A stretch of DNA of 64,000 nucleotides. It comes from Auricularia sp. M13. Its lineage: Eukaryota > Basidiomycota > Agaricomycetes > Auriculariales > Auriculariaceae. Shown piece after piece: positions 3,966-61,180 of the stretch. Under the pieces are notes generated by a model. It saw only the letters and a program-made list of their open reading frames with translations, was not told the DNA's origin and did no database searches. The translations under genes and the position numbers were made by a program. Location of the stretch: NCBI GenBank assembly GCA_037042915.1, contig JAXOIZ010000014.1, positions 22,454 through 86,453 of the forward strand. Reading direction: 5' to 3'. Position 1 is the first letter of the stretch, and every line of letters begins with the position of its first letter.

Positions 3966-5669
3966 CTACGCACTCCGCCCGTCCCAAGGGCCCGGCGAAA
4001 TGAGGTGGCGGCGCAGTGGCAGTAAACCGTGTTGTATTGCTCGCAAAGATAACGATCTATGTACACAACCGCAGCGCCACGCATCGGGCTTAATCGACGC
4101 CGTCAGCAGGTCGCCCAGCGTCCACGCCGTCGTGTCGCGCACGTGAATGTCCGGGTCGCGAATCATGTCAATCATAATGGGCAGCGCCTGCTGGACGAGC
4201 GGCGCGAGAGCCGCGGGATCAGGGCCGTCAAGAATCGAGCCGAACGCCATGACGGCCGCCTCGCGGAAGTGCCAGTCGGGGTTCTTGATGTTGACCTCGA
4301 TGAACGGCAGCGCCTGCTGGACGATCGCGTCGCCCACGGCCTGCGCGAGCAGACCCAAACACGTGCCAGCGGCCATCGAGACGTTCCACTCGTCCTCGTC
4401 CGCGTCCTCCTCTTGGCGCGTGAGCAACTGCAGGATGACGGGCATGATCTCGGGCAGGGCGATTTTGGCAAAATATTTGCTCTCGTTCTCCGGCTGCTCG
4501 CCGTACTCGGCGGCCTCCGCCTCCTCGATAGCGAGGTCGATCTCCTCCTCGCACACCGTCGACCAGAACTCGACGGCCTGCAGCGCGACGGCCTCCTCCG
4601 GGTTCTTCATCCCGAGCACGGTGAGGCCGAAGAGCGCCCGCTCCATGTAGAAGCTCATCTTGTCGTAGTACAGGCCCATTATGCGCACCAGGCATTCGAA
4701 CGCGGCGACCTGCACGGGCACGGACGGGTTCTGCGTCGCCTCGCAGACGACCTGCATGATGTAGTTGCGCTCGCCCTGCGCGAGTCAGCGGACGCGTCAT
4801 CTCGCTTGCTCGGGACCGACTGACCTCGCGTTCAAAGTTCTCGCGCACAAACTCCAGCGAGTTGTAGAGCGCATTGATCGCGGCGAGCTGAACGTCTGGC
4901 GACGGCTCGTCCTTGCGCGCGCCGTGTACGACGGCGGTGAGGATCTCGTTTGCGCGCATGGCGAGCACCTCCGGCCGCTGCCACCAAATCAGCGCCGAAA
5001 ACCAAAAGAAAAAACCAAGGAAAAAACGCACGATGGTCTCGCAGATGTAGCCGATCGTCTGGAGGGCGGCGACGCGCAGGTTGGCGTTGGAGGGGTCATT
5101 GACGTAGCCGAGCAGGCCCTGGATGAGCTCGGGCCACTGGTGATGCGGCAGCTCGACGGCGGCGATGGCGGCGATGACCTGGGCAGAAACGCCCGCCGCG
5201 CGCGTGGGCGACGAGAGCGTCTGCAGGACCTGCTGTTTGACCTGGTTTTTGGTGTCGGCCGGGAGGTTGAGCCAGCGGGCCTCGTAGTCTTGCTGCCGTT
5301 GCACGTCCTGTCCGCGGAACTGAGTATACTGCGGTTACTGGCACAAGATAATAGACTCACCCTTGCTGTCAGAGCGTTCTTGAGCGCGATACCGGCGGCG
5401 TTCCTCGTCAACATTTCGGCAGACTCTTTGGCGAGCTCCTGGGCGAGCAGCACCATGTACACGGGCTGCGGCGGGCATCAGTACTGACCAGGCCGTGGCG
5501 CAGACGCTGATTGGGACGCACGTAGTTGGTGGCCGCTGCGTGCTCTAAGGCGGCGGTGGCATTCTGACGCGTCGCGGCGTCTGGCAGATAGGTTAGTATT
5601 AACCGACGCGCTCTATACGGCGCACTCGCCAGTGGCCAGCGAGTCTGAAAGGAGACTGGCGACGTTCAT
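3966..5669 (-). CDS. KAP95: Truncated importin-beta / Kap95-like HEAT-repeat protein, copy 1
   Basis: Importin-beta carries cargo through nuclear pores and is released by RanGTP. I read six exons: 5630-5669, 5522-5580, 5361-5465, 5032-5319, 4825-4977 and 3966-4775, joined in frame to 484 residues. Introns are 49, 56, 41, 54 and 49 bp; the first needs a GC-AG donor (GCGAGT) and has a TACTAAC branch site. Family landmarks are exon 1 beginning MNVASLLSDSL, NPDW and GERNYIMQVVCEA blocks, an acidic loop QEEDADEDEWN at about 336-346 (as in HEAT 8 of importin-beta), and VRDTTAWTLG at 427-436. The family usually runs near 860-880 residues; here homology stops at KPD (444-446), followed by an unrelated 38-residue tail and TAG at 3966-3968. 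The RIC tripeptide normally following TLG is absent. What remains should cover the Ran- and FG-nucleoporin-binding half, not the full importin-alpha-binding half. Functional status unknown. Confidence 0.85.
5581..5629 (-). other. GC-AG first intron of the importin-beta-like gene
   Basis: Exon 1 can be joined in frame to the conserved DAATRQNA segment of exon 2 only if the donor is GCGAGT after the base at 5630. The intron is then 49 bp, like the gene's other introns, and contains TACTAAC 13 bp before CCAG. GT donors nearby (at 5624 and 5617 on the reverse strand) give the wrong phase. The same donor is kept in all seven copies. Confidence 0.6.
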
Positions 5670-12821: not shown

Positions 12822-14525
12822 CTACGCACTCCGCCCGTCCCAAGGGCCCGGCGAAATGAGGTGGCGGCGCAGTGGCAGTAAACCGTGTTGTATTGCTCGC
12901 AAAGATAACGATCTATGTACACAACCGCAGCGCCACGCATCGGGCTTAATCGACGCCGTCAGCAGGTCGCCCAGCGTCCACGCCGTCGTGTCGCGCACGT
13001 GAATGTCCGGGTCGCGAATCATGTCAATCATAATGGGCAGCGCCTGCTGGACGAGCGGCGCGAGAGCCGCGGGATCAGGGCCGTCAAGAATCGAGCCGAA
13101 CGCCATGACGGCCGCCTCGCGGAAGTGCCAGTCGGGGTTCTTGATGTTGACCTCGATGAACGGCAGCGCCTGCTGGACGATCGCGTCGCCCACGGCCTGC
13201 GCGAGCAGACCCAAACACGTGCCAGCGGCCATCGAGACGTTCCACTCGTCCTCGTCCGCGTCCTCCTCTTGGCGCGTGAGCAACTGCAGGATGACGGGCA
13301 TGATCTCGGGCAGGGCGATTTTGGCAAAATATTTGCTCTCGTTCTCCGGCTGCTCGCCGTACTCGGCGGCCTCCGCCTCCTCGATAGCGAGGTCGATCTC
13401 CTCCTCGCACACCGTCGACCAGAACTCGACGGCCTGCAGCGCGACGGCCTCCTCCGGGTTCTTCATCCCGAGCACGGTGAGGCCGAAGAGCGCCCGCTCC
13501 ATGTAGAAGCTCATCTTGTCGTAGTACAGGCCCATTATGCGCACCAGGCATTCGAACGCGGCGACCTGCACGGGCACGGACGGGTTCTGCGTCGCCTCGC
13601 AGACGACCTGCATGATGTAGTTGCGCTCGCCCTGCGCGAGTCAGCGGACGCGTCATCTCGCTTGCTCGGGACCGACTGACCTCGCGTTCAAAGTTCTCGC
13701 GCACAAACTCCAGCGAGTTGTAGAGCGCATTGATCGCGGCGAGCTGAACGTCTGGCGACGGCTCGTCCTTGCGCGCGCCGTGTACGACGGCGGTGAGGAT
13801 CTCGTTTGCGCGCATGGCGAGCACCTCCGGCCGCTGCCACCAAATCAGCGCCGAAAACCAAAAGAAAAAACCAAGGAAAAAACGCACGATGGTCTCGCAG
13901 ATGTAGCCGATCGTCTGGAGGGCGGCGACGCGCAGGTTGGCGTTGGAGGGGTCATTGACGTAGCCGAGCAGGCCCTGGATGAGCTCGGGCCACTGGTGAT
14001 GCGGCAGCTCGACGGCGGCGATGGCGGCGATGACCTGGGCAGAAACGCCCGCCGCGCGCGTGGGCGACGAGAGCGTCTGCAGGACCTGCTGTTTGACCTG
14101 GTTTTTGGTGTCGGCCGGGAGGTTGAGCCAGCGGGCCTCGTAGTCTTGCTGCCGTTGCACGTCCTGTCCGCGGAACTGAGTATACTGCGGTTACTGGCAC
14201 AAGATAATAGACTCACCCTTGCTGTCAGAGCGTTCTTGAGCGCGATACCGGCGGCGTTCCTCGTCAACATTTCGGCAGACTCTTTGGCGAGCTCCTGGGC
14301 GAGCAGCACCATGTACACGGGCTGCGGCGGGCATCAGTACTGACCAGGCCGTGGCGCAGACGCTGATTGGGACGCACGTAGTTGGTGGCCGCTGCGTGCT
14401 CTAAGGCGGCGGTGGCATTCTGACGCGTCGCGGCGTCTGGCAGATAGGTTAGTATTAACCGACGCGCTCTATACGGCGCACTCGCCAGTGGCCAGCGAGT
14501 CTGAAAGGAGACTGGCGACGTTCAT
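12822..14525 (-). CDS. KAP95: Truncated importin-beta / Kap95-like protein, copy 2
   Basis: Same six-exon structure as copy 1, with exons 14486-14525, 14378-14436, 14217-14321, 13888-14175, 13681-13833 and 12822-13631. Its translated exons read the same as copy 1, including the 38-residue tail and the missing RIC. No frameshift or internal stop was seen. The truncation therefore predates amplification of the unit. The copy-specific indels of unit 2 all fall outside it. Confidence 0.85.
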
Positions 14526-21611: not shown

Positions 21612-23315
21612 CTACGCACTCCGCCCGTCCCAAGGGCCCGGCGAAATGAGGTGGCGGCGCAGTGGCAGTAAACCGTGTTGTATTGCTCGCAAAGATAACG
21701 ATCTATGTACACAACCGCAGCGCCACGCATCGGGCTTAATCGACGCCGTCAGCAGGTCGCCCAGCGTCCACGCCGTCGTGTCGCGCACGTGAATGTCCGG
21801 GTCGCGAATCATGTCAATCATAATGGGCAGCGCCTGCTGGACGAGCGGCGCGAGAGCCGCGGGATCAGGGCCGTCAAGAATCGAGCCGAACGCCATGACG
21901 GCCGCCTCGCGGAAGTGCCAGTCGGGGTTCTTGATGTTGACCTCGATGAACGGCAGCGCCTGCTGGACGATCGCGTCGCCCACGGCCTGCGCGAGCAGAC
22001 CCAAACACGTGCCAGCGGCCATCGAGACGTTCCACTCGTCCTCGTCCGCGTCCTCCTCTTGGCGCGTGAGCAACTGCAGGATGACGGGCATGATCTCGGG
22101 CAGGGCGATTTTGGCAAAATATTTGCTCTCGTTCTCCGGCTGCTCGCCGTACTCGGCGGCCTCCGCCTCCTCGATAGCGAGGTCGATCTCCTCCTCGCAC
22201 ACCGTCGACCAGAACTCGACGGCCTGCAGCGCGACGGCCTCCTCCGGGTTCTTCATCCCGAGCACGGTGAGGCCGAAGAGCGCCCGCTCCATGTAGAAGC
22301 TCATCTTGTCGTAGTACAGGCCCATTATGCGCACCAGGCATTCGAACGCGGCGACCTGCACGGGCACGGACGGGTTCTGCGTCGCCTCGCAGACGACCTG
22401 CATGATGTAGTTGCGCTCGCCCTGCGCGAGTCAGCGGACGCGTCATCTCGCTTGCTCGGGACCGACTGACCTCGCGTTCAAAGTTCTCGCGCACAAACTC
22501 CAGCGAGTTGTAGAGCGCATTGATCGCGGCGAGCTGAACGTCTGGCGACGGCTCGTCCTTGCGCGCGCCGTGTACGACGGCGGTGAGGATCTCGTTTGCG
22601 CGCATGGCGAGCACCTCCGGCCGCTGCCACCAAATCAGCGCCGAAAACCAAAAGAAAAAACCAAGGAAAAAACGCACGATGGTCTCGCAGATGTAGCCGA
22701 TCGTCTGGAGGGCGGCGACGCGCAGGTTGGCGTTGGAGGGGTCATTGACGTAGCCGAGCAGGCCCTGGATGAGCTCGGGCCACTGGTGATGCGGCAGCTC
22801 GACGGCGGCGATGGCGGCGATGACCTGGGCAGAAACGCCCGCCGCGCGCGTGGGCGACGAGAGCGTCTGCAGGACCTGCTGTTTGACCTGGTTTTTGGTG
22901 TCGGCCGGGAGGTTGAGCCAGCGGGCCTCGTAGTCTTGCTGCCGTTGCACGTCCTGTCCGCGGAACTGAGTATACTGCGGTTACTGGCACAAGATAATAG
23001 ACTCACCCTTGCTGTCAGAGCGTTCTTGAGCGCGATACCGGCGGCGTTCCTCGTCAACATTTCGGCAGACTCTTTGGCGAGCTCCTGGGCGAGCAGCACC
23101 ATGTACACGGGCTGCGGCGGGCATCAGTACTGACCAGGCCGTGGCGCAGACGCTGATTGGGACGCACGTAGTTGGTGGCCGCTGCGTGCTCTAAGGCGGC
23201 GGTGGCATTCTGACGCGTCGCGGCGTCTGGCAGATAGGTTAGTATTAACCGACGCGCTCTATACGGCGCACTCGCCAGTGGCCAGCGAGTCTGAAAGGAG
23301 ACTGGCGACGTTCAT
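21612..23315 (-). CDS. KAP95: Truncated importin-beta / Kap95-like protein, copy 3
   Basis: Exons 23276-23315, 23168-23226, 23007-23111, 22678-22965, 22471-22623 and 21612-22421, with the same splice sites (GC-AG first intron) and the same protein as copy 1. Substitutions and small deletions lie just downstream of the stop codon (21521-21560), but none lies in an exon. Confidence 0.85.
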
Positions 23316-29400: not shown

Positions 29401-32400
29401 ATTCGACTTGCACGCAGTACCCATGGCCCCCAGTCGCTAGCACCGGCGCTTGGAACTGGCGCGCGAATCGACGGATTTGGTCCGGCGCGCCCAGACTCGG
29501 TCGACATCAACCTCGGCCGTTCCGCCTGAGGATCGGGCTCGCGGTTCTGCTCGACACTGGGAGTCTGCAGCGCGAGTTGCATGCCATGACGGTGCGTGGT
29601 TGACTCGCAATTCGCGTTTTGCTGCTGACGTCCCCAGCACCGCCGTGTGCATCTCCAGGTCATTCCCCCGGCCCCCGTGTGCGGCATCTGGCGCGCATGG
29701 ACGCACAGACCCACCGAGTCAACGCTCGAGGACGGGCGCTTCTTCCTCGGGCGGGAATCGCGAGATTCAGTTGGTCGCGCACGTCCAAAACGCAAAACTT
29801 GCGTTCCGGCGACCTCGCCCGAATCTCCCCAAATTCTGGCGCTGAGTCGGGGTAAATGTCAGCACTCATGAGCTGTGAGCTCTCGCGCCGGCGCTTCGTA
29901 TTCCCGCGGGAATCGACGATTTTGGTCGCGGACGAGCCGAACGCAAAACTCGGTTTTCCTCGACCTCGGCCGTTCCGCGTGAGAGTCGGCACCGTGGCTC
30001 GAGTGCATAAAATGCGCCTGAGGACCGATTTTTGGCTGCGTGCGGCCCTGAACTGCGTCGCGCACGGACGATTTTGTTCGCGTTTTGGCCGTTCCGTCCT
30101 CTTCTCGCTCGTTCCCGCGGTCCTGTATGCATTTTGACACGTAATACACAGTATTGAACACATCCCTGAGCCCGAATCGAACCGTTCACAGCAGGCATGC
30201 CGTACTCTCACAGCAAGCACGCCGCACTCTCACCCCCACAACGCCCATTCCCCGTCTCCCGCCCCTCTCGCGTAGATAGGTCCTACCTCCCGCAAAGTCC
30301 TCCCATTCACTCCCCAAGCACCAATCACAGGCCAAGAAAGTTAAAGACTTACTGAACTCTCCTCGACTTCACTCTTTTCAGCGTCTACGCACTCCGCCCG
30401 TCCCAAGGGCCCGGCGAAATGAGGTGGCGGCGCAGTGGCAGTAAACCGTGTTGTATTGCTCGCAAAGATAACGATCTATGTACACAACCGCAGCGCCACG
30501 CATCGGGCTTAATCGACGCCGTCAGCAGGTCGCCCAGCGTCCACGCCGTCGTGTCGCGCACGTGAATGTCCGGGTCGCGAATCATGTCAATCATAATGGG
30601 CAGCGCCTGCTGGACGAGCGGCGCGAGAGCCGCGGGATCAGGGCCGTCAAGAATCGAGCCGAACGCCATGACGGCCGCCTCGCGGAAGTGCCAGTCGGGG
30701 TTCTTGATGTTGACCTCGATGAACGGCAGCGCCTGCTGGACGATCGCGTCGCCCACGGCCTGCGCGAGCAGACCCAAACACGTGCCAGCGGCCATCGAGA
30801 CGTTCCACTCGTCCTCGTCCGCGTCCTCCTCTTGGCGCGTGAGCAACTGCAGGATGACGGGCATGATCTCGGGCAGGGCGATTTTGGCAAAATATTTGCT
30901 CTCGTTCTCCGGCTGCTCGCCGTACTCGGCGGCCTCCGCCTCCTCGATAGCGAGGTCGATCTCCTCCTCGCACACCGTCGACCAGAACTCGACGGCCTGC
31001 AGCGCGACGGCCTCCTCCGGGTTCTTCATCCCGAGCACGGTGAGGCCGAAGAGCGCCCGCTCCATGTAGAAGCTCATCTTGTCGTAGTACAGGCCCATTA
31101 TGCGCACCAGGCATTCGAACGCGGCGACCTGCACGGGCACGGACGGGTTCTGCGTCGCCTCGCAGACGACCTGCATGATGTAGTTGCGCTCGCCCTGCGC
31201 GAGTCAGCGGACGCGTCATCTCGCTTGCTCGGGACCGACTGACCTCGCGTTCAAAGTTCTCGCGCACAAACTCCAGCGAGTTGTAGAGCGCATTGATCGC
31301 GGCGAGCTGAACGTCTGGCGACGGCTCGTCCTTGCGCGCGCCGTGTACGACGGCGGTGAGGATCTCGTTTGCGCGCATGGCGAGCACCTCCGGCCGCTGC
31401 CACCAAATCAGCGCCGAAAACCAAAAGAAAAAACCAAGGAAAAAACGCACGATGGTCTCGCAGATGTAGCCGATCGTCTGGAGGGCGGCGACGCGCAGGT
31501 TGGCGTTGGAGGGGTCATTGACGTAGCCGAGCAGGCCCTGGATGAGCTCGGGCCACTGGTGATGCGGCAGCTCGACGGCGGCGATGGCGGCGATGACCTG
31601 GGCAGAAACGCCCGCCGCGCGCGTGGGCGACGAGAGCGTCTGCAGGACCTGCTGTTTGACCTGGTTTTTGGTGTCGGCCGGGAGGTTGAGCCAGCGGGCC
31701 TCGTAGTCTTGCTGCCGTTGCACGTCCTGTCCGCGGAACTGAGTATACTGCGGTTACTGGCACAAGATAATAGACTCACCCTTGCTGTCAGAGCGTTCTT
31801 GAGCGCGATACCGGCGGCGTTCCTCGTCAACATTTCGGCAGACTCTTTGGCGAGCTCCTGGGCGAGCAGCACCATGTACACGGGCTGCGGCGGGCATCAG
31901 TACTGACCAGGCCGTGGCGCAGACGCTGATTGGGACGCACGTAGTTGGTGGCCGCTGCGTGCTCTAAGGCGGCGGTGGCATTCTGACGCGTCGCGGCGTC
32001 TGGCAGATAGGTTAGTATTAACCGACGCGCTCTATACGGCGCACTCGCCAGTGGCCAGCGAGTCTGAAAGGAGACTGGCGACGTTCATCCTGCAGCTCGT
32101 GCCTGGAGAATGGGAGGGAGAGAAAGTGTGGCTCTGTTTTCCCGGTCCGCTCGCTTTTTCCCTCGCGTCCAAAGAACAACCTCGACTATGGACAAGGCAA
32201 GCAAAACTGTCCTTCCTTCCTGTTTTTTTTCTTAATCTCGCCAGGCAAGAGGAGGTGCGCGTGGCGGTGGCGGCCACCCGGCTGCTCGCGATAAGACTCG
32301 AACTTCCACTCTCGCGGGTGGTTCTTTGGCCGCGGACGCCGAAGGCGGCCGCCACGTGCTCGTCTTGCCTGGTCGACGGTTTTGGCGCCGGCTTGCTCGC

Positions 32401-38100: not shown

Positions 38101-41100
38101 CGCGCGCCCGGCCGAGACGCGGAAACTGCGTTCGTTCGGCGTCGTCCGTTTGCCACCAAATCGCGGGCCATGATTCGACTTGCACGCAGTACCCATGGCC
38201 CCCAGTCGCTAGCACCGGCGCTTGGAACTGGCGCGCGAATCGACGGATTTGGTCCGGCGCGCCCAGACTCGGTCGACATCAACCTCGGCCGTTCCGCCTG
38301 AGGATCGGGCTCGCGGTTCTGCTCGACACTGGGAGTCTGCAGCGCGAGTTGCATGCCATGACGGTGCGTGGTTGACTCGCAATTCGCGTTTTGCTGCTGA
38401 CGTCCCCAGCACCGCCGTGTGCATCTCCAGGTCATTCCCCCGGCCCCCGTGTGCGGCATCTGGCGCGCATGGACGCACAGACCCACCGAGTCAACGCTCG
38501 AGGACGGGCGCTTCTTCCTCGGGCGGGAATCGCGAGATTCAGTTGGTCGCGCACGTCCAAAACGCAAAACTTGCGTTCCGGCGACCTCGCCCGAATCTCC
38601 CCAAATTCTGGCGCTGAGTCGGGGTAAATGTCAGCACTCATGAGCTGTGAGCTCTCGCGCCGGCGCTTCGTATTCCCGCGGGAATCGACGATTTTGGTCG
38701 CGGACGAGCCGAACGCAAAACTCGGTTTTCCTCGACCTCGGCCGTTCCGCGTGAGAGTCGGCACCGTGGCTCGAGTGCATAAAATGCGCCTGAGGACCGA
38801 TTTTTGGCTGCGTGCGGCCCTGAACTGCGTCGCGCACGGACGATTTTGTTCGCGTTTTGGCCGTTCCGTCCTCTTCTCGCTCGTTCCCGCGGTCCTGTAT
38901 GCATTTTGACACGTAATACACAGTATTGAACACATCCCTGAGCCCGAATCGAACCGTTCACAGCAGGCATGCCGTACTCTCACAGCAAGCACGCCGCACT
39001 CTCACCCCCACAACGCCCATTCCCCGTCTCCCGCCCCTCTCGCGTAGATAGGTCCTACCTCCCGCAAAGTCCTCCCATTCACTCCCCAAGCACCAATCAC
39101 AGGCCAAGAAAGTTAAAGACTTACTGAACTCTCCTCGACTTCACTCTTTTCAGCGTCTACGCACTCCGCCCGTCCCAAGGGCCCGGCGAAATGAGGTGGC
39201 GGCGCAGTGGCAGTAAACCGTGTTGTATTGCTCGCAAAGATAACGATCTATGTACACAACCGCAGCGCCACGCATCGGGCTTAATCGACGCCGTCAGCAG
39301 GTCGCCCAGCGTCCACGCCGTCGTGTCGCGCACGTGAATGTCCGGGTCGCGAATCATGTCAATCATAATGGGCAGCGCCTGCTGGACGAGCGGCGCGAGA
39401 GCCGCGGGATCAGGGCCGTCAAGAATCGAGCCGAACGCCATGACGGCCGCCTCGCGGAAGTGCCAGTCGGGGTTCTTGATGTTGACCTCGATGAACGGCA
39501 GCGCCTGCTGGACGATCGCGTCGCCCACGGCCTGCGCGAGCAGACCCAAACACGTGCCAGCGGCCATCGAGACGTTCCACTCGTCCTCGTCCGCGTCCTC
39601 CTCTTGGCGCGTGAGCAACTGCAGGATGACGGGCATGATCTCGGGCAGGGCGATTTTGGCAAAATATTTGCTCTCGTTCTCCGGCTGCTCGCCGTACTCG
39701 GCGGCCTCCGCCTCCTCGATAGCGAGGTCGATCTCCTCCTCGCACACCGTCGACCAGAACTCGACGGCCTGCAGCGCGACGGCCTCCTCCGGGTTCTTCA
39801 TCCCGAGCACGGTGAGGCCGAAGAGCGCCCGCTCCATGTAGAAGCTCATCTTGTCGTAGTACAGGCCCATTATGCGCACCAGGCATTCGAACGCGGCGAC
39901 CTGCACGGGCACGGACGGGTTCTGCGTCGCCTCGCAGACGACCTGCATGATGTAGTTGCGCTCGCCCTGCGCGAGTCAGCGGACGCGTCATCTCGCTTGC
40001 TCGGGACCGACTGACCTCGCGTTCAAAGTTCTCGCGCACAAACTCCAGCGAGTTGTAGAGCGCATTGATCGCGGCGAGCTGAACGTCTGGCGACGGCTCG
40101 TCCTTGCGCGCGCCGTGTACGACGGCGGTGAGGATCTCGTTTGCGCGCATGGCGAGCACCTCCGGCCGCTGCCACCAAATCAGCGCCGAAAACCAAAAGA
40201 AAAAACCAAGGAAAAAACGCACGATGGTCTCGCAGATGTAGCCGATCGTCTGGAGGGCGGCGACGCGCAGGTTGGCGTTGGAGGGGTCATTGACGTAGCC
40301 GAGCAGGCCCTGGATGAGCTCGGGCCACTGGTGATGCGGCAGCTCGACGGCGGCGATGGCGGCGATGACCTGGGCAGAAACGCCCGCCGCGCGCGTGGGC
40401 GACGAGAGCGTCTGCAGGACCTGCTGTTTGACCTGGTTTTTGGTGTCGGCCGGGAGGTTGAGCCAGCGGGCCTCGTAGTCTTGCTGCCGTTGCACGTCCT
40501 GTCCGCGGAACTGAGTATACTGCGGTTACTGGCACAAGATAATAGACTCACCCTTGCTGTCAGAGCGTTCTTGAGCGCGATACCGGCGGCGTTCCTCGTC
40601 AACATTTCGGCAGACTCTTTGGCGAGCTCCTGGGCGAGCAGCACCATGTACACGGGCTGCGGCGGGCATCAGTACTGACCAGGCCGTGGCGCAGACGCTG
40701 ATTGGGACGCACGTAGTTGGTGGCCGCTGCGTGCTCTAAGGCGGCGGTGGCATTCTGACGCGTCGCGGCGTCTGGCAGATAGGTTAGTATTAACCGACGC
40801 GCTCTATACGGCGCACTCGCCAGTGGCCAGCGAGTCTGAAAGGAGACTGGCGACGTTCATCCTGCAGCTCGTGCCTGGAGAATGGGAGGGAGAGAAAGTG
40901 TGGCTCTGTTTTCCCGGTCCGCTCGCTTTTTCCCTCGCGTCCAAAGAACAACCTCGACTATGGACAAGGCAAGCAAAACTGTCCTTCCTTCCTGTTTTTT
41001 TCTTAATCTCGCCAGGCAAGAGGAGGTGCGCGTGGCGGTGGCGGCCACCCGGCTGCTCGCGATAAGACTCGAACTTCCACTCTCGCGGGTGGTTCTTTGG

Positions 41101-47918: not shown

Positions 47919-49622
47919 CTACGCACTCCGCCCGTCCCAAGGGCCCGGCGAAATGAGGTGGCGGCGCAGTGGCAGTAAACCGTGTTGTATTGCTCGCAAA
48001 GATAACGATCTATGTACACAACCGCAGCGCCACGCATCGGGCTTAATCGACGCCGTCAGCAGGTCGCCCAGCGTCCACGCCGTCGTGTCGCGCACGTGAA
48101 TGTCCGGGTCGCGAATCATGTCAATCATAATGGGCAGCGCCTGCTGGACGAGCGGCGCGAGAGCCGCGGGATCAGGGCCGTCAAGAATCGAGCCGAACGC
48201 CATGACGGCCGCCTCGCGGAAGTGCCAGTCGGGGTTCTTGATGTTGACCTCGATGAACGGCAGCGCCTGCTGGACGATCGCGTCGCCCACGGCCTGCGCG
48301 AGCAGACCCAAACACGTGCCAGCGGCCATCGAGACGTTCCACTCGTCCTCGTCCGCGTCCTCCTCTTGGCGCGTGAGCAACTGCAGGATGACGGGCATGA
48401 TCTCGGGCAGGGCGATTTTGGCAAAATATTTGCTCTCGTTCTCCGGCTGCTCGCCGTACTCGGCGGCCTCCGCCTCCTCGATAGCGAGGTCGATCTCCTC
48501 CTCGCACACCGTCGACCAGAACTCGACGGCCTGCAGCGCGACGGCCTCCTCCGGGTTCTTCATCCCGAGCACGGTGAGGCCGAAGAGCGCCCGCTCCATG
48601 TAGAAGCTCATCTTGTCGTAGTACAGGCCCATTATGCGCACCAGGCATTCGAACGCGGCGACCTGCACGGGCACGGACGGGTTCTGCGTCGCCTCGCAGA
48701 CGACCTGCATGATGTAGTTGCGCTCGCCCTGCGCGAGTCAGCGGACGCGTCATCTCGCTTGCTCGGGACCGACTGACCTCGCGTTCAAAGTTCTCGCGCA
48801 CAAACTCCAGCGAGTTGTAGAGCGCATTGATCGCGGCGAGCTGAACGTCTGGCGACGGCTCGTCCTTGCGCGCGCCGTGTACGACGGCGGTGAGGATCTC
48901 GTTTGCGCGCATGGCGAGCACCTCCGGCCGCTGCCACCAAATCAGCGCCGAAAACCAAAAGAAAAAACCAAGGAAAAAACGCACGATGGTCTCGCAGATG
49001 TAGCCGATCGTCTGGAGGGCGGCGACGCGCAGGTTGGCGTTGGAGGGGTCATTGACGTAGCCGAGCAGGCCCTGGATGAGCTCGGGCCACTGGTGATGCG
49101 GCAGCTCGACGGCGGCGATGGCGGCGATGACCTGGGCAGAAACGCCCGCCGCGCGCGTGGGCGACGAGAGCGTCTGCAGGACCTGCTGTTTGACCTGGTT
49201 TTTGGTGTCGGCCGGGAGGTTGAGCCAGCGGGCCTCGTAGTCTTGCTGCCGTTGCACGTCCTGTCCGCGGAACTGAGTATACTGCGGTTACTGGCACAAG
49301 ATAATAGACTCACCCTTGCTGTCAGAGCGTTCTTGAGCGCGATACCGGCGGCGTTCCTCGTCAACATTTCGGCAGACTCTTTGGCGAGCTCCTGGGCGAG
49401 CAACACCATGTACACGGGCTGCGGCGGGCATCAGTACTGACCAGGCCGTGGCGCAGACGCTGATTGGGACGCACGTAGTTGGTGGCCGCTGCGTGCTCCA
49501 AGGCGGCGGTGGCATTCTGACGCGTCGCGGCGTCTGGCAGATAGGTTAGTATCAACCGACGCGCTCTATACGGGGCACTCGCCAGTGGCCAGCGAGTCTG
49601 AAAGGAGACTGGCGACGTTCAT
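47919..49622 (-). CDS. KAP95: Truncated importin-beta / Kap95-like protein, copy 6
   Basis: Exons 49583-49622, 49475-49533, 49314-49418, 48985-49272, 48778-48930 and 47919-48728. Two exon substitutions are visible, at 49403 (leucine CTG to TTG) and 49499 (leucine TTA to TTG). Both are silent, so the 484-residue product is unchanged. Intron 1 has changes near 49553 and in the sequence after the donor, but the GC donor and the TACTAAC branch site remain. The flanking non-coding DNA of this unit is clearly more diverged than the exons. Confidence 0.85.
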
Positions 49623-49829
49623 CCTGCAGCTCGTGCCTGGAGAATGGGAGGGAGAGAAAGTGTGGCTCTGTTTTCCCGGTCCGCTCGCTTTTTCCCTCGC
49701 GTCCAAAGAACAACCTCGACTATGGACAAGGCAAGCAAAACTGTCCTTCCTTCCTGTTTTTTTTCTTAATCTCGCCAGGCAAGAGGAGGTGCGCGTGGCG
49801 GTGGCGGCCACCCGGCTGCTCGCGATAAG

Positions 49830-49841
49830 ACGCCGTCCTCG
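49830..49841 (+). other. 12-bp insertion private to unit 6
   Basis: ACGCCGTCCTCG is inserted upstream of the importin-beta-like gene copy 6 (about 210 bp before its start codon). Neighbouring substitutions at 49859 and 49868 are also private to this unit. Confidence 0.85.
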
Positions 49842-50765
49842 ACTCGAACTTCCACTCTTGCGGGTGGCTCTTTGGCCGCGGACGCCGAAGGCGGCCGCCA
49901 CGTGCTCGTCTTGCCTGGTCGACGGTTTTGGCGCCGGCTTGCTCGCTGCCACGACCGCCGTGCGCGCTGGGCGTTAGTCCCCTACTGCCGCGGCGTTCGT
50001 GGCTGCTGCTGCTGCATCCCGCTCATCGCTCGGTGCAGCGTCAAAGAAATTACTAGGTAATTAACAAGCAGCTCGCAGTCGGCAGCCGTCGAGAAAGCTC
50101 GCGCCCAACTCGCGCTGCCGTGACCCCAGTTGGTCTCTATGCATCCAGCGACGTCGCGCTTGCATCCCGCTTTGCGCTCGCAGTCGCATACACCGCGCGC
50201 TTGCAAGACGCTGCCTGCCATTCATCCAGATCCCCACGCTCGCCGACCTTGCCAACGTACTCGAATTGACTTGCCATCGTCGCGTCAAAGACATTGCTAC
50301 CAGCCAAGTATTGGCGATGACTCTGCGAACGTCGTCAACTAAGCTCGAACGTCGGCTCACAAGGAATGGTCGCGCTGCATCTCACAGTCGCATACAACGC
50401 GCGCTTGCAAGACGCTGCCTGCCATCGTCGCGTCAAAGACATTGCTACCAGGTAAGTATTTGCGACAGCTCTGCTCACGTCGTCATCGCCCGCCCGAGTA
50501 ACGGTGTCGATCGTGAGTTTTCATTGTCGACTAAAAGTCAAACAAACTCACCGAACGCGTCAGTTTTCCAGGACAACTCGACGGCTCAGCGGTGCCAAGA
50601 CCGCATCGAGCAGCGTTGCAAAGTCCGCGTCCAGCAACGTTGCAAACAGCTGCCCCTCGTCGCTGCCGATCGTGAGTTTTACTTTCTTGAACTTGAAGCC
50701 CTCTTACATCATCATCATCTCTTGGATCGCACTCAGGATTCACTCGCGGGCACGCGCCGTCCATG

Positions 50766-50820
50766 GTACGCTATGAATGCCTCTTTCCTATCCCTGACTT
50801 TGTACACTGACTTCATTCAG
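50766..50820 (+). other. Intact intron-like element in unit 6
   Basis: 55 bp with GTACGC donor, CTGAC branch and TTCAG acceptor. It corresponds to donor-less remnants in units 1-5. The surrounding plus-strand frame is unidentified. Confidence 0.35.
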
Positions 50821-53800
50821 GACACAACTTTTGCCGATCGAGGACGAGTTCAGCGATGCCCACGGCTCGCGCGGTGCCGTTCTAGGTCTGTCGCGTGTTT
50901 TTATTTGCACGCAGCCAATTCTGACGATCGGACGCTCAGATTATACAAAGGACCGCGACGACGCAGACGGTGACACGCACCGCGCTCAGCTTGAAGCCGC
51001 GTGGGCAGCAGACGACGAGGAGCTGCCGATAGGACGCAAATCAGGCGCCAGAGCGCAGCTCGCGACTCGGGGCGTTCAGCTCGTCGTCAGCGGCATGCGC
51101 AGTCGCGGCCTGCGCGTGCCAGCTAGAGAGGACGGCGCTCGCGTCACGCACTCCGTGCTCGCGGCGCAGAACGTCCAGTTCGATGCAAACAGGCTCGCGG
51201 CCTTCGCCCCAAGCGCCGTTCTCTCTTGCGTGCGCGCCAGCGAGAGAGGACAGCGCTCGGGTCGCCCACTCCGTGATCGCGAGGCGGAGCGTCTGGTTCG
51301 GTGCGAACAGGCTGCGCGCCGCAAGCACCGTCCTCTCGCGCGCACGCACCAGCGAGAGGGAGGACGGTGCTCGGGTCGCGCGCGATGCGGAGCGTCCGGT
51401 TCAATGTGAACAGGCCGCGCTCGCCGTCGCGGCCAGCGCTACGAGCCCCGTTCTCTCTCTCGGATGCGTGCATGCAAGAGAGGACAACGCTGGGTCCGTG
51501 CACCCCGCGAGCACGATATGTATGCGTAGCGACTCACCAATATACCGTTTCCCTCGCCATTCCGCGCCATCGCCGTCGTGCTGCAAAATGAGCTTGAGTA
51601 AAGTCTACATGCGATAGGAAGGCCAAGGACGTACTATTGGTGAAAATGGTAGCGTGAACTTGGACCGCAAATTAATGCTGCCTGCGAGGGAAGTTGTCAG
51701 CCGCGAGCAGAACCCATCGCAATCACTAGTACTCACCTGTGACGGCCGAACGGTTGTCTTGTACACCAACAAATGTATGCCTGCCTGTAAAACGTCATTT
51801 GGCTGAAACGGACTGCGATCGGACACTCACAATCGAGTGTCGTGTGTTGGCGCTGTTCGGTGGTCGTGAGCATACTTACAGCCGGCGGACGACGCACAGC
51901 GCAGAATGATGAACTCACGATCGGCGACGTTGAATGTGTCTGGTACAACAACGGGCACATACCGGGGGGTATTTCCGTCGTCATGAGCGCAGGCAGTCGG
52001 AACGCGACAGGAAGACTCACGATGTCGCAACGAGAACGCTCGATCGACCCCACGTCGACAGCGCGGGTACGCGGCGAGCACGAGTCCAGTGGCCACGGAC
52101 ATCGAGGGCGCACTCGGAGTGCGCGAATGCATACGTCGGTTCTGCGAGGTGGCGAGGAGAGAACGTGGGCGATGCGGAGGAGGGAGGTCGGGCTCGATGC
52201 TGCACCAGAGTCGCACGCACGCACCTTTTATACCGCTACAGCGCGGCCTCCCTTCCGATTGAATCCCGGAGGATGACTGTTTCACCTCGTACGAGCACCA
52301 TGAATAACTTGTTTGCGTTGCTGAAGCGAATCGGCGGTGCCGAGACCGGGCGGCGGAGGGTTGTGCGGCCTCGCGTCGCGATTCAGACCGATATTCTGCT
52401 CGTCCCGCTGCGTCCCCTGGAAATTTTCGTCTTGCACCAAATTTCAGTGGTTCAGGATCCAATTAGGCGCCCGTGGGTCAAGGTAGGGAGGGAGTAGGTA
52501 CCCCTATACCCTCTAGACTCCCAAAATCGCTCCTACTCACGGCCGCCGCGTTTCCGCGTCTCCACGCAGCTCTACCGCGCCATCTGATGCCTAACAAACC
52601 GGCGATTGATCTCCGTGAAACGAGAAGCCCAAAGAATAGAGCGGCATTGCGAGAAACCGCGTTTTCGTCGCTACAGCGCCGACCGCGTAGCTAGGCTCCC
52701 AGCCTCTTCTGCGGCGGATTTCTCATCGGAAAGCACTGCTCAGTCAGCGCTCATTGAGACGGCATGTGTCAGCACCGGTGAGGCCGCGAGGGTAGGCCGG
52801 TGTGTGCGAGTTCATGGGGCGTTGTTCTGGCTGAGCGGAGTTTGATCACGCGCGTTCTCGTCCCCCCGGGCCGAATTTCTCACCGAATTTCGACGCCTCC
52901 GCGGGATACTACCCTCAGCGATGCTATAAATAGAACATGGACTGTACATGAGTGCATATGTGAGAGGTAAATGTTCTGGAATGGGTACAAAGTTCGCGTT
53001 TTGCGCTCGCGGCGCTCAAGATTTCACCCTGTAAGAAGCGGCCTGGTCGCTCTCATGGACAATTCACATCGTATATTAGCCTCTCAGACTGTTATCGTTG
53101 ACTGGCATTTATCATGCCGCACAATCCGACTTCCCTGCCCTCGTGAGCTGGTCACCAGACGTGCATCTGCACTTGAGATAGAACTAGACAAAATGACTAT
53201 TCAGAGACCTTATATATGACGCATATCTCATTGTCCGGGATCTCAGCCGCCTCAGACGTCGCGTGTATGTTCAGTGCACTCATTCTGCAGCATACGACGC
53301 GGGATAGCGCGTTTTGAACGGCTGAGGCTCCTCAGCCCCGTTCGCATGCATATTTTGCATGCCGCTCGGAATCCGAGGAGGTTCGGCAGGGGTGTTCGTG
53401 CTGTGCATACCCAGATTGGAGCTACATCGCGCGACGATATTCCCGTGAGAACCTCAGGTTCATGTGTCACAGAAATGCTGTGAGATTATACAGACGATGT
53501 TGGGCAACTGCTGTGGCTGAATTCACTCGGCAAAATGGAATGGTTTGATGGTGGCAACGAAACACCGGATGACCAAGGCCGGACTTGCGCCAAAAATTTC
53601 GTCAACTCCGCCCCGTGCCTTTCTTCTCCAGACCAGTGATAAGTATCCCAGGTCCATTCTCACCCAATTCTCTGCACCATATTCCCCCTGCGCTCACTAC
53701 GCTCGACAGACGTGCTGCGCAGCTGCCGTCGGCCATGTTGGCGAACCTCTGCGTGCAGCTTACTCTGGTGGTGCGTGCGCTCTGCCATCTGCTCTCGGAG

Positions 53801-56726
53801 TCGCTTTGCTCATTGTGCCCAGGAGATACACGTCACGTGACTCGCACATCCCGCAATTCGGCCTCCAGTCTCCGCACAGGCAGCGGCAACAGGATCGCTA
53901 CCAGACCACTGTCACGGGAGGTTGAGCTCAATAGTGCGTTCTATACGTCCATATGTCGCGTCTCCGAAAGTTTGCTCATGTTTGCCACCAGCCTCTTCCT
54001 CGAGCTCCCAGCATCACTGCCTCAAATCCACAGACCGACAGGCTCAATGCAACACGCAACCGATCTGACGGCGTTTTTTGTGCGGGCTATGCGCAGCCGT
54101 CCGCACAACACGCGTTTCTGTCTCTGATGGCCGGTGTCGCTGCACGCGCTCGAATACCTCGGTGAGTGCTTCAGTCGTCATTTGTGCAGTCTGCAGTCGT
54201 GTCTGACAATCTCGATTAGCCTGAAATGCAGTTCGGCTTTGAACACTCTCCGGCGACCTTGAAAAGCATCGCTGCAGCTTTCCCTTCGGAGACGGGGAAA
54301 TCGGCCTTGCAGCCCGCCGTCGCATGCCAAATCTGCGCTCTCGCCACGGCACACCCTGTCGGTTTAACCTCCATGATTCTGTGAGTGCAAACCGCCATCC
54401 TCCGTAGATATGGAATCTGCAACTGACGTGATCTCTTTGCAGAAAACGAATCGATTCGGGTCCCAAGCCGGCGACGTCGACAGCGCCGTGGGCCTCATGT
54501 TTCGCAAGACGTGTTTCTTGTGGTGAGTACATCGAACATCGTCTCTTCGCAGATATGGAATCTGCAGCTAACGTGTTTGACCTTTTGATTGGCAGGAATT
54601 GCTGTGCGAGTCCGCGTACCCTCTGCCAATGTCGCCAACCATCCCGACCACAGCGCAGCGGGACAAATTACCGGTTTCCTGGCATCAAAATGGCGCTCAT
54701 GCTCGATCTCATCCACGAGGCGCATACCCTCGACGCGGAACCGGCGCCTGTCGCCGGCGAGCGACGTTATTCCCCATCGCCGTCGGCAACACAACTCATC
54801 CGTTCTGCGGCAAAATTGGCCCCAGGTATCGCGCACATGACGGAGTCACTCTGGTGAAATGGTACGTCGCGCTGCCGCGGTTTCGTTCCTCGATTTTCGA
54901 TCCTTTGTTGCTCACCTTCCGATCAACAGCTGGCTGCTGAACTCGACCTCAGTCTATCGACCTGGAAATGCGACATCTGGTTGCAACTGACACCAGGAAA
55001 CATGGTGCGGGCTGTGCTGCGCGTGGGCTCCGTCCGCGGTTGCTGGCGCGGCGTTCGTTGCCACTTGCTTCCCGTCGCCCTCGCCGCCGTCGGAATCGGA
55101 CACGGCGTTACACGCTAGACGCGGCCTCGTGGATTATGCTCGTTTCATGGGTATTCTGCTACGGAGGACAGGTGCTGAGGTGCGTCCTCGTCTCGCAGTT
55201 CCCCAATTCGTTTCTTACTCCTCGCCCACCGCTAGCCACAGAATCGCGCCAGTCCTCGTCCAATCAGCACACACTCTCGGAGGCGGGTGAGCATCTGTGC
55301 TATCGATTACCACGTCCAGCGTTCCGCTGGAGCGCTCGCTCTACGGCCGCTGGTGCTCGATTTTCCGTCCGCCGTGCTTCCCATCACCCAGACCGCCTCG
55401 GAACCGGACCTCGTCCGTTCCGCGCAAGACTCGGGCTCGGACATGGCCACGATGGAAGGACTCTGCAGCGCGAACGGAGTGCGGTGAGGGTGCGTGCTCG
55501 TCTCGAAAGCGCGTTTTTGCTGATCGCGCCATCACCAGCCGCACCTCGGGCCCTCCTCTCGACCGATGCGCGCCAGCGCGTGCGTACCAGCGCGGATACG
55601 GGCTGCGGCTCAGCCCATCAAAAATCACGCGCCGAGGCCACTTCCTGGGACGCGAATCGCAAGATTCGTTCGCGCGCGCCCGGCCGAGACGCGGAAACTG
55701 CGTTCGTTCGGCGTCGTCCGTTTGCCACCAAATCGCGGGCCATGATTCGACTTGCACGCAGTACCCATGGCCCCCAGTCGCTAGCACCGGCGCTTGGAAC
55801 TGGCGCGCGAATCGACGGATTTGGTCCGGCGCGCCCAGACTCGGTCGACATCAACCTCGGCCGTTCCGCCTGAGGATCGGGCTCGCGGTTCTGCTCGACA
55901 CTGGGAGTCTGCAGCGCGAGTTGCATGCCATGACGGTGCGTGGTTGACTCGCAATTCGCGTTTTGCTGCTGACGTCCCCAGCACCGCCGTGTGCATCTCC
56001 AGGTCATTCCCGGCCCCCGTGTGCGGCATCTGGCGCGCATGGACGCACAGACCCACCGAGTCAACGCTCGAGGACGGGCGCTTCTTCCTCGGGCGGGAAT
56101 CGCGAGATTCAGTTGGTCGCGCACGTCCAAAACGCAAAACTTGCGTTCCGGCGACCTCGCCCGAATCTCCCCAAATTCTGGCGCTGAGTCGGGGTAAATG
56201 TCAGCACTCATGAGCTGTGAGCTCTCGCGCCGGCGCTTCGTATTCCCGCGGGAATCGACGATTTTGGTCGCGGACGAGCCGAACGCAAAACTCGGTTTTC
56301 CTCGACCTCGGCCGTTCCGCGTGAGAGTCGGCACCGTGGCTCGAGTGCATAAAATGCGCCTGAGGACCGATTTTTGGCTGCGTGCGGCCCTGAACTGCGT
56401 CGCGCACGGACGATTTTGTTCGCGTTTTGGCCGTTCCGTCCTCTTCTCGCTCGTTCCCGCGGTCCTGTATGCATTTTGACACGTAATACACAGTATTGAA
56501 CACATCCCTGAGCCCGAATCGAACCGTTCACAGCAGGCATGCCGTACTCTCACAGCAAGCACGCCGCACTCTCACCCCCACAACGCCCATTCCCCGTCTC
56601 CCGCCCCTCTCGCGTAGATAGGTCCTACCTCCCGCAAACTCCTCCCATTCACTCCCCAAGCACCAATCAGGACTGTGAAAAGTTAAAGACTTACTGAACT
56701 CTCCTCGACTTCACTCTTTTCAGCGT

Positions 56727-58430
56727 CTACGCACTCCGCCCGTCCCAAGGGCCCGGCGAAATGAGGTGGCGGCGCAGTGGCAGTAAACCGTGTTGTATTG
56801 CTCGCAAAGATAACGATCTATGTACACAACCGCAGCGCCACGCATCGGGCTTAATCGACGCCGTCAGCAGGTCGCCCAGCGTCCACGCCGTCGTGTCGCG
56901 CACGTGAATGTCCGGGTCGCGAATCATGTCAATCATAATGGGCAGCGCCTGCTGGACGAGCGGCGCGAGAGCCGCGGGATCAGGGCCGTCAAGAATCGAG
57001 CCGAACGCCATGACGGCCGCCTCGCGGAAGTGCCAGTCGGGGTTCTTGATGTTGACCTCGATGAACGGCAGCGCCTGCTGGACGATCGCGTCGCCCACGG
57101 CCTGCGCGAGCAGACCCAAACACGTGCCAGCGGCCATCGAGACGTTCCACTCGTCCTCGTCCGCGTCCTCCTCTTGGCGCGTGAGCAACTGCAGGATGAC
57201 GGGCATGATCTCGGGCAGGGCGATTTTGGCAAAGTATTTGCTCTCGTTCTCCGGCTGCTCGCCGTACTCGGCGGCCTCCGCCTCCTCGATAGCGAGGTCG
57301 ATCTCCTCCTCGCACACCGTCGACCAGAACTCGACGGCCTGCAGCGCGACGGCCTCCTCCGGGTTCTTCATCCCGAGCACGGTGAGGCCGAACAGCGCAC
57401 GCTCCATGTAGAAGCTCATCTTGTCGTAGTACAGGCCCATTATGCGCACCAGGCATTCGAACGCGGCGACCTGCACGGGCACGGACGGGTTCTGCGTCGC
57501 CTCGCAGACGACCTGCATGATGTAGTTGCGCTCGCCCTGCGCTAGTCAGCGGACGCGTCATCTCGCTTGCTCGGGACCGACTGACCTCGCGTTCAAAGTT
57601 CTCGCGCACAAACTCGAGCGAGTTGTAAAGCGCATTGATTGCGGCGAGCTGGACGTCTGGCGACGGCTCGTCCTTGCGCGCGCCGTGTACGACGGCGGTG
57701 AGGATCTCGTTTGCGCGCATGGCGAGCACCTCCGGCCGCTGCCACAAAATCAGCGCCGAAAACCAAAAGAAAAAACCAAGGAAAAAACGCACGATGGTCT
57801 CGCAGATGTAGCCGATCGTCTGGAGGGCGGCGACGCGCAGGTTGGCGTTGGAGGGGTCATTGACGTAGCCGAGCAGGCCCTGGATGAGCTCGGGCCACTG
57901 GTGATGCGGCAGCTCGACGGCGGCGATGGCGGCGATGACCTGGGCAGAAACGCCCGCCGCGCGCGTGGGCGACGAGAGCGTCTGCAGGACCTGCTGTTTG
58001 ACCTGGTTTTTGGTGTCGGCCGGGAGGTTGAGCCAGCGGGCCTCGTAGTCTTGCTGCCGTTGCACGTCCTGTCCGCGGAACTGAGTATACTGCGGTTACT
58101 GGCACAAGATAATAGACTCACCCTTGCTGTCAGAGCGTTCTTGAGCGCGATACCGGCGGCGTTCCTCGTCAACATTTCTGCAGACTCTTTGGCGAGCTCC
58201 TGGGCGAGCAGCACCATGTACACGGGCTGCGGCGGGCATCAGTACTGACCAGGCCGTGGCGCAGACGCTGATTGGGACGCACGTAGTTGGTGGCCGCTGC
58301 GTGCTCTAAGGCGGCGGTGGCATTCTGACGCGTCGCGGCGTCTGGCAGATAGGTTAGTATTAACCGACGCGCTCTATACGGGGCACTCGCCAGTGGCCAG
58401 CGAGTCTGAAAGGAGACTGGCGACGTTCAT
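56727..58430 (-). CDS. KAP95: Truncated importin-beta / Kap95-like protein, copy 7 (silent divergence)
   Basis: Exons 58391-58430, 58283-58341, 58122-58226, 57793-58080, 57586-57738 and 56727-57536. Eight exon substitutions against copy 1 sit at 57234, 57393, 57399, 57616, 57628, 57640, 57652 and 58179. Each is at a third codon position and silent (Tyr, Leu, Arg, Leu, Leu, Ala, Val, Ala), so the protein is identical to the other copies. Introns carry further changes (near 57543 and 57746) without hitting splice sites. The strongly altered part of the array starts just upstream of its start codon, so its promoter region is disturbed. Confidence 0.83.
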
Positions 58431-58599
58431 CCTGCAGCTCGTGCCTGGAGAATGGGAGGAGAGAAAGTGTGGCTCTGTTTTCCCGGTCCGCTCGCTTTTT
58501 CCCTCGCGTCCAAAGAACAACCTCGACTATGGACAAGGCAAGCAAACTGTCCTTTCTTACTTTTTTTCTTAATCTCACATGGGCGCCCGCCAGGCAAGA

Positions 58600-59540
58600 G
58601 GAGGTAAGTATTAACAAAGCTCTGCAGTCACGCCGTCATCGCCCGCTCGCGCTGCCGTGACCCAGTTGGTCTCTATGATCCGTGAGTTTTCATTGTCGAC
58701 TAAAAGTCAAACAAACTCATTCCGAACGCTCGTCAGTTTTCCAGGACTCAATTCACTTGCCATCGTCGCGTCAGCGGTTATTGGCGATGACTCCTGCGAA
58801 CGTCGTCCGAGCAGCGTCAGCTCACAAAGTCCGCGTCCAGCATACATGCTTGCAAGACAGCTGCCTGCTATCCTCGTCGCTGCCGATCGTGAGTTCGCGT
58901 TACATTGCTACCGGGTTGAACTTGAAGCCCTCTCGTCATCATCAGCTCATCTCGGCGATCGCAGCCGTCCAGGATTCATCGCGGGCACTCCGTCCCATAC
59001 ACGCTTGAACGCTGCTTGCCATTCATTCCAGAACCCCCCTGACGTTTGTACACGAATTGACTTCATTCAGCGACACAACATTTTGCCGATCGAGGACGAG
59101 TGCTCACGTCGATGCCCACGGCCTGCGCGGTCGCTTCTAGGTCTGTCGCTGTTTTTATTTGCACGCAGCCACCCTGCCGATCCGACGCTCAGATTATACT
59201 CAATTGACTTGCCATCGCGCGTCAAAGCATTGCTACCAGGTAAGTATTTGCGACACGACGCGCTCAACTTGATAACGCTCAGGGTCATCCGGACGGCGAG
59301 GAGTTGCTCGATGAGATTGTCGACTAAAGTCAAACAAACTCAGAGCGCAGTTTTCAGGACGACTCGGGGCGTTCAGCTCGTCGTCAGCGGCATGCGCAGT
59401 TCGCGGCCTGCGCGTGCCAGCCCTCCTACATCATCATCATCTCGGATCGCACTCAGGATTCACTCGCGCACGTCCATGGTACGCTCGCGGCGCAGAACGT
59501 CCAGTTCGATGACAAACAGGATCGAGGACGAGTTCAGCGA
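58600..59540. other. Interleaved segment made of two out-of-register repeat blocks
   Basis: Short blocks alternate between sequence matching 6300-6400 and sequence matching 6560-6700 of unit 1. For example, 58751-58773 matches 6300-6322, then 58781-58806 matches about 6344-6370, then 58809-58816 matches 6641-6648, then 58820-58826 matches 6390-6396, then 58827-58839 matches 6655-6667. The plain order of either parent block is not kept. Confidence 0.6.
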
Positions 59541-61180
59541 TGCCCCACGGTTCGCGCGTCGTTCACAGGTCTGTCGCGTGTGTTTTTTATTTGCGCGCCA
59601 TTCCTGACGATCGGACGCTCCAGATTATACAAAGCTCCGCGACGGGTCGGTGCCGCGCCGCGCTCGATCGCGAGGCGGAGCGTCTGGTTCGGACGCAAAT
59701 CAGGCGCCAGAGCGCGCTCGCGGCTCAGCGTTCAGCTCGTCGCGCGGCACGCAGTCGCGGTCCAGCGCCAAGCTGTTCTCTCTCGCGAGGACGGTGCCTG
59801 GTCGCACTCCGCTCGCGACGCGGAGCGTCCGGTTCGATGTGAACAGGCCGCGCTCGCCGTCGCGGCCAGCGCTACGAGCCCCGTTCTCTCTCTCGGATGC
59901 GTGCATGCAAGAGAGGACAACTGGTCCGTGCACCCCGCGAGCACGATATATGCGTAGCGACTCACCAATATACCGTTTCCTCGCCATTCCGCGCCATCGC
60001 CGTCGTGCTGCAAAATGAGCTTGAGTAAAGGTCTACATGCGATAGGAAGGCCAAGGACGTACTATTGGTGAAAATGGTAGCGGAACTTGGACCGCAAATT
60101 AATGCTGCCTGCGAGGGAAGTTGTCAGCCATGAGCAGAACCCATCAATCACTTGCACTACTCACCTGTGACGGCCGAACGGTTGTCTTGTACACCAACAA
60201 ATGTATGCCTGCCTTTAAAACGTCATTTGGCTGAAACGGACTGCGATCGGACGCTCACAATCGAGTGTCGTGTTGGCGCTGTTCGGTGGTCGTGAGCATA
60301 TACAGCTGGCGGACGACGCACAGCGCAGAATGATGAACTCACGATCGGCGACGTTGAATGTGTCTGGTACAACAACGAGCACATACCGGGGGTATTTCCG
60401 TCGTCATGAGCGCAGGCAGTCCCGGAACGCGACAGGAAGACTCACGATGTCGCAACGAGAACGCTCGATCGACCCCACGTCGACAGCGCGGGTACGCGGC
60501 GAGCACGAGTCCAGTGGCCACGGACATCGAGGGCACTCGGAGTGCGCGAATGCATACGTCAGTTCTGCGAGGTGGCGAGGAGAGAACGTGGGCGATGCGG
60601 AGGAGGGAGGTCGGGCTCGATGCTGCACCAGAGTCGCACGCACGCACCTTTTATACCGCTAGCAGCGCGGCCCTCCCTTCCGATTGAATCCCGGAGGATG
60701 ACTGATTCCTCGTACGAGCACCATGAATAACTTGTTTGCGTTGCTGAAGCGAATCGGCGGTGCCGAGACCGGGCGGCGGAGGGTTGTGCGGCCTCGCGTC
60801 GCGATTCAGACCGATATTCTGCTTTCGTCCCCGCTGCGTCCCCTGGAAATTTTCGTCTTGCACTAAATTTCAGTGGTTCAGGATCCAATTAGGCGCCCGT
60901 GGGTCAAGGTAGGGAGGGAGTAGTACCCCTATACCCTCTAGACTCCCAAAATCGCTCCTACTCACGGCCGCCGTTTCCGCGTCTCCACGCAGCTCTACCG
61001 CGCCATCTGATGCCTAACAAAACCGGCGATTGATCTCCGTGAACGAGAAGCCCAAAGAATAGAGCGGCATTGCGAGAAACCGCGTTTCGTCGCTACAGCG
61101 CCGACGTAGCTAGGGCTCCCAGCCTCTTCTGCGGCGGATTCACATCGGAAAGCACTGCTCAGTCCAGCGCTCATTGAGAC

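Follow-up and report, generated by a model that had tools for sequence, protein, structure and literature searches.

How do the copies of a truncated gene come to differ from one another at silent sites only? The question is raised by a 64,000-nucleotide stretch of Auricularia sp. M13 DNA (the window; positions given without a contig name refer to it), which covers positions 22454-86453 of contig JAXOIZ010000014.1 (C14) in a 52-Mb assembly of 14 contigs. A first-pass annotation of the window had noted that exonic substitutions among its importin-beta-like copies were all synonymous, and had taken this to suggest purifying selection, either on the truncated protein itself or on a functional full-length gene that had donated sequence to two of the copies. 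We asked which of these histories the array, its edges and the remainder of the assembly support.

An array of truncated importin-beta copies

The whole of C14 (86,453 bp) consists of a tandem array, accounting for about ten units in the assembly, and each complete unit (8.76-8.99 kb) carries one 1704-bp importin-beta stretch on the minus strand. Seven complete copies of this stretch lie in the window (Table 1), two further complete copies precede it on C14, and a partial copy occupies the contig start. The seven window copies align without gaps over all 1704 bp, and not a letter differs between copies 1-5 and the two complete copies that lie outside it. With units that are nearly identical and edges that are more divergent, C14 behaves as a concerted-evolution array that is homogenised and probably young. 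Ribosomal DNA was rejected as its identity, since nothing in the window reaches the gathering score of an Rfam family; telomere repeats (doubled TTAGGG or CCCTAA) are absent from C14, 10 of the 22 listed open reading frames (ORFs) overlapping one unit gave no Pfam family at E up to 0.01, and the intergenic part of the unit, searched in the assembly, gave 11 listed matches that are all on C14 (10 candidates scored).

Table 1. Positions of the array features in the window.
Feature	Position	Strand	Remark
Copy 1	3966..5669	-	array-core sequence
Copy 2	12822..14525	-	identical to copy 1
Copy 3	21612..23315	-	identical to copy 1
Copy 4	30385..32088	-	identical to copy 1
Copy 5	39157..40860	-	identical to copy 1
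Copy 6	47919..49622	-	4 substitutions vs copies 1-5; 2 exonic, synonymous
Copy 7	56727..58430	-	importin-beta 5' half + 38-residue tail; 480 aa
Copy 7 exons	58391-58430, 58283-58341, 58122-58226, 57793-58068, 57586-57738, 56727-57536	-	hand-set splice sites
End of importin homology	56839..56877	-	9-bp in-frame RIC loss (about 56877), then junction
Diverged stretch	49403..50994		copy 6 5' end and repeat-rich sequence upstream of copy 6
U9 intergenic stretch	51007..56638		0/5513 substitutions in counted part, 3 short indels there
Diverged block 3' of copy 7	56639..56678		10 differing columns
Right contig end	58577..64000		partial unit; rearranged and indel-rich vs other units; appears unpolished

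Exon limits were placed by hand, using splice signals and importin homology. Introns 2-5 of the importin copies are GT-AG, and intron 1, which spans 49 bp at 58342-58390, is GC-AG. All nine complete copies encode, in six exons, one identical protein of 480 aa, made up of importin-beta residues ~1-445 (residues 1-44 being present in the truncated copies) followed by a 38-residue tail. Residues 3 to 432 of the ORF align to solved importin-beta chains (E 3e-136), and its Pfam matches, IBN_N and HEAT, are those of the N-terminal half of importin subunit beta-1 (karyopherin beta-1, KPNB1/Kap95). The C-terminal half of importin-beta, with its importin-alpha binding region, is absent from all nine, since the frame ends 38 codons past the importin part. 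The same nine copies have also lost, relative to the copy at the contig start, the three conserved residues RIC just ahead of the junction, which follows importin codon ~445 at about 56839-56848, a position set by eye and by where the first copy of C14 begins. A search with the C-terminal 56 residues of this ORF found nothing in the PDB at E up to 10, although so short a query makes this a weak negative.

Exonic differences are all silent

Copy 7 differs from copies 1-5 by 11 substitutions, three of which are intronic and eight exonic (57234, 57393, 57399, 57616, 57628, 57640, 57652 and 58179), and copy 6 differs by four, two intronic and two exonic (49403 and 49499). Checked codon by codon, the eight exonic changes of copy 7 and the two of copy 6 are indeed all synonymous, as had been noted from the sequence alone, and the amino-acid changes or stops in other copies that would have told against constraint are found in none of the nine complete copies; frame-breaking indels occur only in the partial copy at the contig start. 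Between 24 and 30% of random changes to the copy sequence would be silent, so that ten synonymous changes out of ten have a probability of 5e-7 to 7e-6 (transition weights 1-8), of 1.5e-6 given the exact base changes, or of 4e-6 when direction is ignored. For the ten changes dN/dS is at most 0.11 (one-sided 95% upper bound), and for copy 7 alone at most 0.14; at a dS of 2.5%, copy 7 has no nonsynonymous change, when about 26 would be expected at an equal rate without constraint. A truncated pseudogene would collect coding changes regardless of residues; all ten seen here are silent. Because changes carried in by exchange are not independent, however, these P-values speak of historical constraint and not of ten separate events, and the all-silent pattern fits selection on the truncated copies or on a donor alike. 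Chance, by which ten unconstrained changes all happened to be silent, might draw on the small number of changes and on some of them sharing one event, but with P at about 1e-6 under several mutation models we consider it next to negligible.

The distribution of the changes within the copies is uneven: those of copy 7 end at rc 1197, ahead of the RIC loss and the junction, and those of copy 6 are confined to rc 49-220. Tests of tract shape were weak, both for the empty 3' part (P = 0.06) and for four changes falling within 37 bp (P = 0.004), one of the four (rc 779) being a change in the array core. A stray source for this patch of copy 7 was rejected, in that a 36-bp pattern allowing up to three mismatches gave 10 listed matches, none of them off C14.

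The gene segment of the last complete unit has its own history

Substitutions against the consensus were counted over the nine complete units, leaving aside the partial first copy and the last partial unit, in which MAFFT pairing is poor before about 59900. Units U2-U7 carry 0-3 substitutions each, against 72 in U1, 12 in U8 and 59 in U9. All 72 substitutions of U1 fall within the repeat-rich part, where alignment is uncertain. In U9, the unit that ends in copy 7, they are spread over 11 of 1704 positions in the importin part, 38 of 1463 in the repeat-rich part upstream of copy 6 and 10 of 88 in a short block beside the junction, whereas not one of 5513 intergenic positions is substituted. This contrast between importin and intergenic sequence (Fisher 1e-7) indicates that the gene segment and most of its unit do not share one history. 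It is clear for U9 only, the corresponding counts in U8, the unit of copy 6, differing little (7 of 5506 intergenic and 4 of 1704 importin positions).

Several local features accompany this divergence. Upstream of the importin copies, the repeat-rich sequence of the first complete unit (C14:2370-3266) and that of the last (window 49859-50994) are strongly divergent, and two sites in the repeat-rich part are common to U1 and U9 against the core. The edges of the array thus seem to keep states that have gone from the core, both at these repeat-rich sites and at two exonic sites where copy 7 and the contig-start copy agree. The unit of copy 3 has, at 21525-21563, two of the differing bases of the block 3' of copy 7, and the three units between them have neither. 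At 46402-46418 the unit of copy 6 shows a cluster of changes with a 6-bp deletion that the other eight complete units lack.

The importin-beta C-terminal end breaks off at an assembly gap

The partial copy at the contig start (C14:1-1585) begins within a few bases of where the importin homology of the array was judged by eye to end. It retains the nine bases coding RIC; solved importin-betas have GRIC at the corresponding place, and this conserved GRIC is intact in the contig-start copy. It also contains several short indels, some of them frame-breaking, and a few adjacent mismatches, all denser toward the contig end, which we read, short of proof, as unpolished sequence. Both contig ends (C14:1-1585 and window 58577-64000) are rich in indels compared with the other units and appear unpolished. 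Clear of indels, the core and the contig-start copy differ by four substitutions (rc 779, 1158, 1197 and 1344), all at third positions and all synonymous (1158 and 1344 judged by hand).

The 3' part of the gene was sought by a search with the importin-beta C-terminal family, which placed two pieces over the cut-off, both on the minus strand at C7:2242146-2242813, and one further weak match below the cut-off on C11 (six candidates scored). Once joined, the exons on C7 match solved importin-beta chains over residues 658-866, and this C-terminal end is broken off by a gap of 100 Ns (C7:2242817-2242916) whose strand and side fit for receiving the array. The ~215 intervening codons of importin-beta were not found in the assembly. 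Matches to the N-terminal half are, among those listed (50 protein matches, 41 candidates scored), all on C14, a search in which the array copies may crowd out other matches. A second full-length importin-beta gene as donor was rejected accordingly, with the listed N-terminal matches all on C14 and the C-terminal matches over the cut-off on C7 only.

Together, a first copy that bears RIC and a C-terminal end that stops at an N gap suggest that the array probably sits in the gap on C7, and the one importin-beta locus found would then probably contain C14 as an unresolved array. The simplest reading of the first copy of C14 is that it would be the 5' half of the working importin-beta gene. The contig-start RIC and the C7 gap are compatible with linkage to the parent gene, and a comparison of C7:2240001-2249000 with C14 gave no bridging sequence: apart from one exact match of 21 bp, there were just weaker fragments. 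This 21-bp sequence, near the gap on C7 (positions 4850-4870 of C7:2240001-2249000), is an exact inverted match to nine places on C14 and matches a tenth with one mismatch, which may be chance.

Origin of the silent differences

The explanation that we favour, and that we place just on the probable side, is that the silent-only differences of copies 6 and 7 arose in a 5' half that was part of, or exchanged with, a functional full-length gene, the array itself having come from duplication of that 5' half. Under this proposal, the 5' half of importin-beta and ~7 kb of upstream DNA would have been duplicated into a tandem array, and exchange among units would have made its core uniform, while copies 6 and 7, at the right edge, may have retained older or allelic tracts of the 5' half. 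Such tracts would have evolved inside the functional full-length importin-beta gene or been swapped with it by gene conversion or unequal crossing-over, and copies 6 and 7 would show only silent changes because purifying selection acted on that functional gene. The position of the changes toward the 5' end of both copies is as might be expected from conversion on the promoter side. Against exchange, there is no donor in hand, and the candidate nearest to a parent gene fits poorly: of the ten exonic sites, two (rc 779 and 1197, at 57652 and 57234 in the window) have the copy 7 base in the contig-start copy and seven have that of the array core, and the tenth (rc 815) is deleted or unreadable there. 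Agreement at only two of ten sites implies that this copy was not the direct donor of most variants, and hence that the donor would be a different allele or the gene in an earlier state; we infer a functional allele, and an array that lies next to the full-length gene, in the gap on C7. In addition, the diverged block at 56639-56678 lies beyond the junction, out of reach of any single tract coming from the full-length gene. Of the two parts of the original proposal, purifying selection somewhere in the history of these sequences is therefore well supported, and the choice between truncated protein and full-length donor leans toward exchange; the variants match the contig-start copy at a minority of sites.

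If instead the truncated protein were expressed and useful, selection could have purged copies 6 and 7 of amino-acid changes once they had been truncated, which we rate as unlikely. The 480-aa frame is open and identical in all nine complete copies, although this identity shows homogenisation of the array and nothing more, and the fragment has IBN_N and aligns to crystallised N-terminal fragments of importin-beta, such as 1ibr. When exchange is ignored and the contig-start copy serves as outgroup, all ten changes fall on truncated lineages (seven derived in copies 6 and 7, two in the core, one unpolarised), giving ten synonymous and no nonsynonymous changes there, the same as expected under selection on the truncated protein. 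But the conserved RIC is missing from the ORF close to where its importin part ends, and N-terminal fragments of importin-beta can block transport; if those encoded here do so, many expressed copies seem costly, hence our low rating. The more specific idea, that at least nine tandem copies encode a truncated importin-beta which purifying selection maintains, possibly to damp nuclear import in a dose-dependent way, is one that we regard as quite improbable. An artefact of assembly or polishing, in which reads from a full-length allele (for example, in a second nucleus) were merged into the array edge at copies 6 and 7, is similarly doubtful: the contig ends look unpolished, the variation sits in the last two complete copies, and elsewhere in the assembly a gap interrupts the C-terminal end of importin-beta, but copy 7 has no indel over 1704 bp and carries both the RIC loss and the junction of the array, and a plain haplotype switch should have altered the adjoining 5.5 kb, which shows no substitution at all.

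Relation to known systems

A literature search for importin or karyopherin genes with tandem copies found no relevant report. The array ORF resembles importin subunit beta-1 in an N-terminal half that aligns to solved chains and belongs to the IBN_N and HEAT families, and departs from it in stopping at residue ~445, in lacking RIC, in its 38-residue tail and in a C-terminal end found only on another contig. An essential importin-beta gene is left broken in the assembly, probably at an unresolved tandem array; were the truncated protein under selection, a core transport receptor would have an unusual, naturally occurring variant. As in the concerted-evolution arrays of rDNA and satellite DNA, near-identical units are arranged head to tail and the ends are more divergent, but here half of a housekeeping gene is contained in each unit, and about ten units are present in the assembly. 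The other parallel is CYP21A1P/CYP21A2, a pseudogene that exchanges sequence with its nearby parent gene. In our case the donor allele is not seen, and linkage to the parent is inferred from the gap; in both, partial or defective copies next to a functional gene would bear tracts of parental sequence. A silent-only signal in truncated repeats can accordingly come from exchange with a working gene and is not immediate proof that the truncated protein is used.
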